In this document: in pieces, positions 2,457-13,445 of the stretch | How the letters are laid out: every line of letters starts with the position of its first letter | Position numbering within the stretch: the first letter of the stretch is position 1 | Source: Paludibacteraceae bacterium | GTDB lineage: Bacteria > Bacteroidota > Bacteroidia > Bacteroidales > Paludibacteraceae | NCBI GenBank assembly: GCA_017525455.1 | Contig: JAFXSS010000133.1 | Coordinates: forward strand, 1 to 33,234 | Direction of reading: 5' to 3' | Length of the DNA stretch: 33,234 nt | Position numbers and translations under genes: made by a program | Notes under the pieces: generated by a model | Databases searched by the model: none | What the model was told of the DNA's origin: nothing | Seen by the model: the letters and a program-made list of their open reading frames with translations, nothing else

Positions 2457-3248
2457 ATGAAAATAGCTCTTATCGGATACGGCAAAATGGGACGGATGAT
2501 CGAGTCCGTAGCCCTCTCACGCGGGCATGAGATCGTTTGTATCATTGATGCACAACCTATCCCTTGCCCCTCTCTGAACGGAAAGATAATATTTACTCCC
2601 GACAAAGGGTTTGCAAGCGAAGCTTTCCGCAGCGCGGATGTGGCAATCGAGTTCAGCTGTCCGCATGCAGCGGAACAGAATGTACGCAAAGCACTGGAGC
2701 TGGGCGTAGCCGTAGTTAGCGGCACGACAGGATGGGATGTGGAAGGGCTGAAAGCGGACCTCTCCCCGGCCCTCCCCTCAAGGGAGGGAGAAAAACGCAA
2801 AGTTGACCATCCGGGAGTGATATGGAGCAGCAACTACAGTGTGGGAGTGAACATATTGTTTGCCGTCAACAAGTATCTGGCACAGTTATTGCAACGAACA
2901 GGTGGGTACACACCGTTTATCACCGAGGTGCACCATGTGCATAAACTCGATGCGCCATCGGGCACAGCCAAGACTTTGGCGGAAGACATCTCCCCGACCC
3001 TCTTCTCAAAAGAGGGAGACAATACCCGTCTTAACGGGGAGTGTGGGGGAAATGTACCCATTACGTCAATACGCGAAGGCGAAGTGCCCGGCATACATGA
3101 GGTGCGATGGGAGAGCGAGGTGGATATACTCACGCTACGCCACGAAGCCAAGTCACGCCAAGGATTCGCGCTCGGCGCAGTGCTGGCGGCAGAGTGGCTA
3201 CGAGGCAAAACAGGATGGCACAGCATGGCAGAAGTCTTGAAGATTTGA
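2457..3248 (+). CDS. dapB: 4-hydroxy-tetrahydrodipicolinate reductase
   Basis: This cytoplasmic enzyme reduces the product of DapA with NAD(P)H in the diaminopimelate/lysine pathway, feeding peptidoglycan and lysine synthesis. The protein has 263 residues. The ATG at 2457 places the dinucleotide-binding motif GYGKMGR immediately at the N-terminus; the ATG at 2370 is upstream of the promoter and gives an unrelated leader. The SGTTGW motif and the catalytic HHVHKLDAPSGTA segment are intact, so it should be active. Two in-frame palindromic insertions add the similar peptides LSPALPSREGE (residues 102-112) and ISPTLFSKEGD (178-188). A third extra stretch near residues 35-50 may also be inserted. 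The stop codon lies inside an octamer tandem repeat that leads to lepB. Confidence 0.95.
   Translation: MKIALIGYGKMGRMIESVALSRGHEIVCIIDAQPIPCPSLNGKIIFTPDKGFASEAFRSADVAIEFSCPHAAEQNVRKALELGVAVVSGTTGWDVEGLKADLSPALPSREGEKRKVDHPGVIWSSNYSVGVNILFAVNKYLAQLLQRTGGYTPFITEVHHVHKLDAPSGTAKTLAEDISPTLFSKEGDNTRLNGECGGNVPITSIREGEVPGIHEVRWESEVDILTLRHEAKSRQGFALGAVLAAEWLRGKTGWHSMAEVLKI
2758..2791 (+). repeat. Palindromic element, copy 1, inside dapB
   Basis: The stem CCCTCCC (2770-2776) pairs with GGGAGGG (2782-2788) around the loop CTCAA. The 34-base unit matches copy 2 at 29 positions, and the stem differences are compensatory. It is translated in frame as LSPALPSREGE. A possible outer stem pairs CTCCCCGG (from 2762) with CCGGGAG (2811-2817), one base short. 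Confidence 0.75.
2986..3041 (+). repeat. Palindromic element, copy 2, inside dapB
   Basis: The stem CCCTCTT (2998-3004) pairs with AAGAGGG (3010-3016) around the same CTCAA loop as copy 1. A second hairpin CCCGT-CTTA-ACGGG (3025-3038) follows, and an alternative outer stem pairs CTCCCCG (2990-2996) with CGGGGAG (3035-3041). It is read in the same frame as copy 1, giving ISPTLFSKEGD. Confidence 0.75.
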
Positions 3249-3285
3249 AGATTTGAAGATTTGAAAATTTGAAGATTTGAAGATT
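3238..3285 (+). repeat. Six tandem octamers between dapB and lepB
   Basis: Six consecutive 8-base units TGAAGATT fill the junction; the fourth unit has one change (TGAAAATT). The array begins within the last codons of dapB, supplies its TGA stop, and ends eight bases before the lepB ATG. Because 8 is not a multiple of 3, the array carries stop codons in all three forward frames. Confidence 0.9.
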
Positions 3286-6335: not shown

Positions 6336-6341
6336 ATTATT

Positions 6342-6373
6342 TGAAGATTTGAAAATTTGAATATTTTAAAATT
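6342..6373 (+). repeat. Octamer tandem repeats before the peptide transporter
   Basis: Four 8-base units decay from TGAAGATT through TGAAAATT and TGAATATT to TTAAAATT, ending six bases before the next ATG. This is the same unit as at 3238-3285. Confidence 0.75.
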
Positions 6374-11566: not shown

Positions 11567-12151
11567 ATGGATAAAATTTCTTATGGATTAGGCCTCTCGT
11601 TAGGCCAGCAACTGAAATCAAGCGGCGTTAAGGAACTGGCTTACGCCGATCTGGCAGCCGGCATACAGGATATGCTGGAAGGTAACCAACCCAAGGTAAG
11701 TTTCCAGGAAGCCCAACAGGCTATCAACAAGTTCTTCGCCGAACTGGAGGAAAAAGCCTCCGTAGCCGCCAAGGCTGCAGGTGAAGCCTTTTTGGCCGAG
11801 AACGCCAAGCGTCCGGGAGTGAAAGTTACCGCATCTGGCTTGCAATACGAGGTACTGGATGCCACTATCGGACAGAAACCCAAAGCCACCGACACCGTTC
11901 GCGTACATTATGAGGGCACATTGCCCGACGGCACAGTGTTCGACAGCAGTTACAAACGCGGCGAGCCTATATCGTTCCCGCTCAACGGCGTTATTGCCGG
12001 ATGGACCGAAGGACTGCAACTGATGTCCGTGGGCTCGAAGTACAAACTGTTCATACCCTATCACCTCGGTTACGGTGAGCGCGGCGCAGGGGCATCCATC
12101 CCGCCGTACTCCGCACTGATATTCACGGTCGAACTGCTGGGAATAGAATAA
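11567..12151 (+). CDS. FKBP-type peptidyl-prolyl isomerase (cytoplasmic)
   Basis: This 194-residue proline isomerase has a FKBP_N dimerisation region (residues about 1-80, MDKISYGLGLSLGQQL) and a catalytic FKBP domain (about 88-194). The FKBP domain includes VHYEGTLPDGTVFDSS, GVIAGWTEGLQLMSVGSK and GYGERGAGASIPPYSALIF, retaining the usual hydrophobic active-site residues. There is no signal peptide, unlike the next gene, so it should act in the cytoplasm. It resembles FklB/Mip-type proteins. The downstream lipoprotein has a closely similar C-terminal domain, suggesting a local duplication. Confidence 0.93.
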   Translation: MDKISYGLGLSLGQQLKSSGVKELAYADLAAGIQDMLEGNQPKVSFQEAQQAINKFFAELEEKASVAAKAAGEAFLAENAKRPGVKVTASGLQYEVLDATIGQKPKATDTVRVHYEGTLPDGTVFDSSYKRGEPISFPLNGVIAGWTEGLQLMSVGSKYKLFIPYHLGYGERGAGASIPPYSALIFTVELLGIE

Positions 12152-12194
12152 CTCGACATCTCGAAAACAACTAATAAACAACAAACATACAACA

Positions 12195-13445
12195 ATGAAG
12201 AAATTATCAATCATCATCCTTGCCGCCATGGCAATGGTATCGTGCGGTAACACCTACACCGCACAAAAGGCTGAACTGGCTTGCATGAACGACAGTATCA
12301 ATTTTGCTCTGGGTATAGCCAACGGTTCGCAAATCAAGGCATACTACCTGCGCAACGACAGCTCGGTAGAGACTATCACTGAGTTTATCGATGCACTGCA
12401 GGCCGGTTACGACGGAGCTGTTCCCGAACTGACTGAAGAGGCACGTATCGGCAAGAACATCGGTTCGAGTATCGCTCAGAGCGAGAAGAAGGGTCTGGCA
12501 GACAATCCTGCATGGACGCTCAACGAGAAACTGCTCTTCCAGGGTCTGGTGAACGGTCTGAACCACGATACCACGGTTATGCAGCCGCAAGCAGCACGTC
12601 AGTTCTTCCAGGAGCAGTATGCTGCATCGCAAGGCTCGACCGAGAAAGCCGGCAAAGTCATCAAGGGTAACTGCCCCAGCAAGGTGAAAACCGTTGCACT
12701 CAAGTCGCTCAACGACTCTATCAACTATGCTTTCGGTCTGATCAACGGCAGCGATATCGCTATGTACGTATTGCTCGACGACACACTGGGTGCCAAGCAG
12801 ACTACGCTCATCAAGCACATCAACAAGGCCATGAAGGAGAAAGTGCACAACCCGCAACTCAAGAACATGGGTGAGCAGATCGGCAAGAGCATCAAGGAGC
12901 AGGAGGCTAACGGCCTGATCAACGAGCCGTCGCTGACCACCGACTTTGCGCTGATCAAGCAAGGCTTCATCAATAGTCTGCTGGGCGACGAAAGCCAGTT
13001 TGACGGTCATTCGGCCGGCGAGTACATCCAATCGACACTCGACAACATCAAGTACGGTCCGGTTAAGGAGCAAGGCGAGAAATTCCTGGAGGAGAACAAA
13101 CTCAAGGAAGGTGTAACCGTTACCGAGAGCGGTCTGCAGTACGAAGTACTGAAGATGGGCAAGGGCAAACGTCCTGTTGCTACCGACAAGGTGAAGGTTC
13201 ATTACCACGGCACGCTGATCGACGGTACAGTATTCGACAGCAGTGTGGATCGCGGTGAGCCTATCGTGTTTGGTCTGAACCAGGTTATTGCCGGTTGGAC
13301 CGAAGGCGTACAGCTGATGCCTGTTGGTTCGAAGTTCCGCTTCTACATCCCGCAGGAACTGGGTTACGGCAGTCGTGCTGCCGGCAGCATACCTCCGTAC
13401 TCTACTCTGATCTTCGAGGTTGAACTGCTCGGCATCGAAAAATAA
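12195..13445 (+). CDS. FKBP-type peptidyl-prolyl isomerase lipoprotein with duplicated N-terminal domain
   Basis: This 416-residue protein begins with a lipoprotein signal whose lipobox ends at Cys17 (AMVSC), so it should be anchored in the cell envelope and assist periplasmic or surface protein folding. Two FKBP_N-like repeats follow: residues about 31-147 (MNDSINFALGIANGS) and about 172-287 (LNDSINYAFGLINGS). The catalytic FKBP domain spans about 310-416, with GVIAGWTEG-like and PPYSTLIFEVELLGIEK segments. Mip-type proteins normally carry one N-terminal domain, so the doubled one is unusual. The A-rich leader before the ATG (AACAACAAACATACAACA) is typical of Bacteroidota starts. Confidence 0.92.
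   Translation: MKKLSIIILAAMAMVSCGNTYTAQKAELACMNDSINFALGIANGSQIKAYYLRNDSSVETITEFIDALQAGYDGAVPELTEEARIGKNIGSSIAQSEKKGLADNPAWTLNEKLLFQGLVNGLNHDTTVMQPQAARQFFQEQYAASQGSTEKAGKVIKGNCPSKVKTVALKSLNDSINYAFGLINGSDIAMYVLLDDTLGAKQTTLIKHINKAMKEKVHNPQLKNMGEQIGKSIKEQEANGLINEPSLTTDFALIKQGFINSLLGDESQFDGHSAGEYIQSTLDNIKYGPVKEQGEKFLEENKLKEGVTVTESGLQYEVLKMGKGKRPVATDKVKVHYHGTLIDGTVFDSSVDRGEPIVFGLNQVIAGWTEGVQLMPVGSKFRFYIPQELGYGSRAAGSIPPYSTLIFEVELLGIEK

Follow-up and report, generated by a model that had tools for sequence, protein, structure and literature searches.

Rickettsia and Wolbachia provide the best-known examples of palindromic repeats that are translated into protein, and other small repeats have been found in genes here and there in other bacteria. 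According to two reports (PMC3767692, PMC2229807), the Rickettsia palindromic elements (RPE, about 100-150 bp in length) and their Wolbachia counterparts reside in genes for conserved proteins, where they leave the frame unbroken and occupy exposed parts of the product, and in Rickettsia orthologous genes can carry different groups of elements at the same site or close to it. The Correia/NEMIS element is another small repeat described in genes, in a 107-bp form (PMC2229807). REP elements, mostly intergenic, are also known inside genes of several bacteria, some of them being fused in frame (PMC3733652). A different kind of relative is TMECO, an intrastrand triplex motif with 9-nt arms that follows the formula CCCTCNCCC-N3-6-GGGNGAGGG-N3-GGGNGAGGG; its description counts 3610 such motifs over 262 proteobacterial genomes and places all 23 copies of E. 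coli K-12 between genes (Holder et al. 2015, PMC4666352). For the Bacteroidota, we found no report of coding palindromes of this kind in the open-access literature that was searched.

The stretch of DNA analysed here (33,234 nt; hereafter the window) corresponds to contig C41 in a Paludibacteraceae draft genome (2.15 Mb, 165 contigs, 85.6% complete). On its forward strand, positions 2457-3248 encode DapB, a 4-hydroxy-tetrahydrodipicolinate reductase of 263 amino acids, which has both DapB domains (PF01113, PF05173) and scores 122.8 bits against TIGR00036 (cut-off 122). As a first-pass annotation of this DNA had observed, dapB hosts two in-frame copies of a small palindromic element. Copy 1 (2757-2790, forward; residues 101-112, DLSPALPSREGE) and copy 2 (2985-3018, forward; residues 177-188, DISPTLFSKEGD) were both recovered by profile and pattern alike, and copy 2 has a counterpart in the related genome G007. 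Both begin at a codon boundary and are read in one frame. Each contains a forward-strand hairpin with 7/7 pairs and the loop CTCAA, located at 2770-2788 in copy 1 (arms 2770-2776 and 2782-2788) and at 2998-3016 in copy 2 (arms 2998-3004 and 3010-3016), and the change from CC/GG to TT/AA described for the stem is indeed real. Two details needed revision: the best identity over six registers tried is 28/34 rather than 29/34, and the conserved unit stops at 3018, 23 bases before the end of 3041 assigned to the feature. We consider it highly probable that both segments belong to a dispersed repeat of about 34 nt with a triplex-type layout, which has made its way into protein-coding genes in a genus of Bacteroidales.

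The unit recurs well beyond dapB, in keeping with the insertion proposed at first pass. Allowing up to three mismatches, its 30-base core was found 254 times, spread over 23 of the 61 genomes scanned from the same genus (range 0-61 per genome), and the reversed core pattern had no match in all 61; across the phylum, 7 of 198 genomes (the window's own included) contained the core and none the reversed pattern. The window's own draft holds 3 copies only, which counts against our reading; the third, close to the end of contig C44, did not score as genic. We analysed 152 of the 254 copies together with their flanks, comprising all copies of G075 (61), G018 (28) and G057 (16), 22 of the 23 copies of G051, and one to three copies from each of 19 other genomes, so that the copy-rich G050 (36), G021 (19), G063 (15) and G071 (12) are represented by one or two copies each. 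Alignment of this set yielded the 34-nt consensus AACCYCWCCCCRRCCCTCYCCTCAAGRGAGGGAG, conservation running from 5 bases upstream of the core to its penultimate base. No Rfam family reached its gathering score within the window. A stem-only pattern (19 nt, one mismatch) was discarded as a search tool: it matched 4 times in G000, compared to 2 matches of its reversed control, and this control matched in most of 8 genomes.

The consensus contains an arm that the first-pass annotation had missed. Its 5' block, CYCWCCC, mirrors the pyrimidine arm of the hairpin, which gives the unit the three-arm layout of an intrastrand triplex. Motifs of this class combine the two arms of a hairpin with a third, mirrored arm, the arms measuring 6-15 nt and the loops 1-6 nt; the 7-nt arms and the loops of 5 and 3 nt lie within these ranges and make the unit, judged by its sequence, a candidate member. 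The putative third-strand arms of the dapB copies map to 2760-2766 and 2988-2994 on the forward strand, each with 6/7 matching triads. Among all 152 copies, the hairpin arms pair at 7/7 positions in 140, while at least six of the seven triads match in 136 and all seven in 48. At the variable stem pair (C-G in 99 copies, T-A in 51, T-G in 2), the third arm covaries in part with the stem: T stands next to purine A in 48 of 51 cases, and C next to purine G in 68 of 101, with T in the other 33. Three control position pairs displayed no such association (P 0.30, 1.0 and 0.73); the Fisher P value of 4e-14 for the covariation ignores the kinship of the copies and is too small because they are related. 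At one other triad T would match, and 87 of the 152 third arms have it there, whereas 60 have A and 5 have C; these A and C bases would speak against a strict triplex. The paired stem changes, from which selection on folding had been suggested, do extend throughout the family, but they reflect the descent of the copies as well as any selection. Single copies folded scarcely better than shuffled sequences of identical base composition (z values of -0.63, -1.55, -0.25 and -1.67), and the stability of single hairpins was dropped as evidence, since these values are near those of shuffles; that it is not unusual also counts against our reading. DNA folding may yet have a role in the spread of the element.

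Whether a copy is genic was decided with a home-made dicodon score, which was trained with long ORFs from the loci that carry the copies and applied to at most 180 bases on each side. By this measure, 86 of the 152 copies lie in an open frame and are flanked by coding signal left and right. Another 43 have such signal on a single flank and 17 on no flank, 5 are found at contig ends, and one is flanked by signal left and right without being open. This lone copy carries a stop at its left end followed by a new ATG, and thus lies between genes. We saw no frame-breaking copy among the 152, the 43 one-sided copies having been classed by score rather than singly. The genic share of the genus copies is about equal to that of random positions, of which 1765/3000 were called genic in the same loci (Fisher P 0.61 versus the copies; these control loci are centred on copies) and 1276/2000 within the window (Fisher P 0.08). 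Genic copies use all six reading frames (forward 35, 17 and 4; reverse 3, 3 and 24), another feature absent from the first-pass account; the reverse frame that holds a stop in 128 of the 152 copies accounts for just 3 genic ones. Copies in other families (six genomes) behave differently, with 2/26 being genic (P 2e-6 versus 86/152) against 828/2000 random positions under a score trained on those loci, although the contrast weakens to 2/26 versus 363/2000 under the genus-trained score. With the own-locus score, one additional copy of these families is coding on both sides and not open. Similarly, tandem ACTCAAC heptamers, sampled in L007 and in 20 regions that we selected from G007, were genic in 5/29 arrays versus 1168/2000 random positions. 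The heptamers thus mostly avoid genes, unlike the 34-nt element, and we rejected them as the same phenomenon. Overlapping ACTCAAC matches number 184 in G007 and 4, all at one place, in G000, though these genomes are close. On these samples, entry into genes is a property of this element in this genus and not of short repeats generally.

The 86 genic copies reduce to 73 sites, distributed over 63 gene clusters. Copies from two or three genomes fall no more than 8 residues apart at 12 of these sites; such coincidence is not always due to descent, given that window copy 1 and a G075 dapB copy occupy the same loop in different frames. Pfam matches were obtained for 28 of 30 host proteins that we chose, and 16 of 33 element sites fell inside a displayed Pfam-matched stretch. 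The hosts include EPSP synthase, a valyl-type tRNA synthetase, S-adenosylmethionine synthetase, DXP synthase, Mur ligases, alanine racemase, RibD, class I and class IV aminotransferases, an aldose epimerase with two copies, an SMC_N protein, GH32, signal peptidase and DapB itself. Another host, which we take from its Pfam domains to be an HflX-like GTPase, has one element site common to three genomes. Homologues spanning the site in another genome were available for 45 copies, and for 28 of the 45 at least one homologue lacks the peptide. The modal length difference between proteins with and without it is 12 residues, a value dominated by one gene. Neither the homologues of genic copies nor the dapB relatives offered a clean empty site at close range, because the loops are too variable, and the length of the insertion is consequently not fixed. 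These observations also bear on the idea that the inserts are selected, either as loop cassettes that tune enzymes or for a structural role of the DNA or RNA within genes. The retention of at least six triads in 136/152 copies and the shared site in the HflX-like GTPase argue for it, as does the refilling of the same DapB loops with different repeats (see below); however, the hosts are diverse, the peptide is not conserved since the frame varies, and homologues exist without it. We therefore regard selection of the inserts as unlikely, and the segments are probably tolerated rather than useful.

How the element moves is a related question. Being a short palindrome with many copies, it could be a REP-type element that depends for its movement on a Y1 tyrosine transposase, in which case its genic copies would be a by-product; REPs inside genes are known (PMC3733652), and weak matches to PF01797 were detected in the copy-rich genomes G018, G051, G065 and G071. 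Overall, however, PF01797 matches occur in 22/61 genomes and in none of the copy-rich G075, G050, G021, G057 and G063, absences that must be read against the incompleteness of the drafts (G075 71%, G021 63%), and the consensus of the element has neither a GTAG nor a CGTC end. Because PF01797 genes do not track copy number, a Y1 transposase is unsupported as the mover, and we judge this explanation to be rather improbable.

A third explanation holds that the two segments are ordinary variation of fast-evolving DapB loops, their likeness being due to chance or to duplication within the gene. DapB loop lengths do differ among relatives, and both copies are in one gene. Against this, an HMM trained on 143 copies, excluding all those of G000, G007 and locus L173 and hence the dapB copies in question, detected both window copies in a set of 43 dapB genes drawn from the genus and the order (E 2.6e-11 and 2.7e-7), while the reversed genes gave nothing under E 3.7, and the unit is found in many unrelated genes and genomes. 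In addition, the 30-base core, as a joint pattern of both copies, had two mismatch-free hits in the window and none in 100 shuffles. Chance likeness is rejected on the shuffles, the genus-wide copies and the HMM, and we consider ordinary loop variation very improbable. Even less credible is that ribosomes skip the hairpins, as they do bypassing elements in yeast mitochondria: the copies are stem-loops within genes, but no frame-breaking copy was seen among the 152 and the stop-bearing frame is rarely used.

Entry of a dispersed repeat, our preferred reading, is also compatible with what surrounds the copies in DapB. Residues H159, H160, K163, S168, G169 and T170, which are assigned a catalytic role, are invariant across 45 aligned sequences, and the copy segments fall in two variable loops without overlapping conserved motifs; the claim that the motifs are intact and the frame kept thus holds. 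The dN/dS of dapB to G007 is 0.20 overall and 0.125 without its three variable loops. AlphaFold (mean pLDDT of the model 86.7) predicts copy 1 as coil from residue 103, whereas copy 2 would start within a helix to residue 183 and continue as coil; the ten-residue blocks at the copies have lower pLDDT, namely 68, 75, 86 and 54. The third DapB loop (2554-2610, PIPCPSLNGKIIFTPDK), which is not the element, is longer than in G007 and most aligned relatives.

Among its relatives, the named ones being largely Bacteroidales MAGs and many of them from ruminant rumen and gut, DapB carries the element in patches. The HMM found six copies over the 43 genes: the window's 2, 1 in G007 and 3 in G075, one of them partial. 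Close orthologues have no unit or another repeat in its place, and the insertion reading survives this alignment. The copy-1 loop contains four ACTCAAC units in G007, CTCAAACC repeats in L074, and sequence of the GAATTAAAAATT or GAATTGAAGATT kind in G015, G006, G021 and G002. The copy-2 loop is filled by CTCAAACC in L074, AGTCGAA in L064, ATGCACA in G017, and an in-frame palindrome, CTCCCTTCCCTTCAGGGAGGGGCTGGGGG, in G022 (L011; HMM E 1.1, not significant), which resembles a divergent inverted copy. In each of the window, L074, G015 and G075, a single repeat class occupies both loops. In L016 (the dapB of G001), the match shifts to another frame after residue 208, just past loop 2, which is a frameshift or an assembly error and not caused by the element.

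Copy 2 also has a history of its own. In a recombination tract of ~180 nt around it (2942-3121, forward strand), G007 resembles the window, and elsewhere it resembles L074: in the tract, 43 informative sites group it with the window and 0 with L074, as opposed to 102 and 323 sites, respectively, over the whole stretch (permutation, 0/10000). Tract sites inside the loop, which is replaced in L074, are non-independent; 4 sites before and 8 after the loop agree as well. Either G007 and the window's lineage exchanged the tract, or L074 received another stretch. The dS to G007, 0.05 in loop 2 (19 sites) versus 0.63 outside the loops, favours the former alternative. The tract complicates any account of copy 2 by simple vertical descent.

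Further repeats were noted in the window. An 8-nt tandem repeat, TTGAAGAT, spans the dapB end with some six copies (3237-3285) and has a related array at 6339-6373; it is another short repeat class of this genome. Upstream of dapB (2232-2378), two nested inverted repeats with arms of 27 and 25 nt (85% and 84% complementary) are possibly regulatory. Two adjacent ORFs at 11567-13445 have similar C-terminal ends (FKBP-like by eye) and apparently represent a tandem duplication.

Taken as a mechanism, the element would insert with little regard to genes, and copies that break a frame would be purged, leaving survivors that keep it. Those in genes would be translated as 11-12 additional residues and tolerated in variable protein loops, and a loop might then pass with its repeat between lineages by short homologous recombination. 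On a broader view, it is conceivable, although we hold this tentatively, that the triplex-type repeat is a general loop supplier in this genus, in that it and several short repeats particular to single lineages keep entering the same tolerant loops of conserved enzymes, replace each other there and pass between species, thereby remodelling the clade's proteome in six frames. The question of how repeats enter genes becomes testable over dozens of sister species, and a word of caution applies to annotated enzymes, whose variable loops may be repeat DNA.

How, then, does the element compare with the systems described? It differs from Correia elements (over 100 bp) in being 34 nt long, and although it shares with REP elements a short palindromic repeat and the presence of some copies in genes, it lacks their characteristic ends. 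Similar to TMECO, it consists of a C-rich arm, a loop, a G-rich arm, a 3-nt loop and a mirrored G-rich arm, and it is numerous in some genomes with few or no copies in relatives. In contrast to TMECO, its arms have 7 nt (152-copy consensus) and 86/152 copies are genic; thus, a 34-nt unit of a class described as purely intergenic in E. coli is here found in genes as often as random positions are. The first-pass interpretation, which likened the element to RPE, is partly supported. Like RPE, the element lies within ORFs without destroying the frame, and dapB orthologues hold different repeats at one loop. It departs from RPE, as far as a comparison by description only allows, in its 34 nt (instead of about 100-150 bp), its mirror arm, its residence in a Bacteroidales genus and its use of six frames. 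The Rickettsia-like reading is therefore supported as a way of working, and not as membership.
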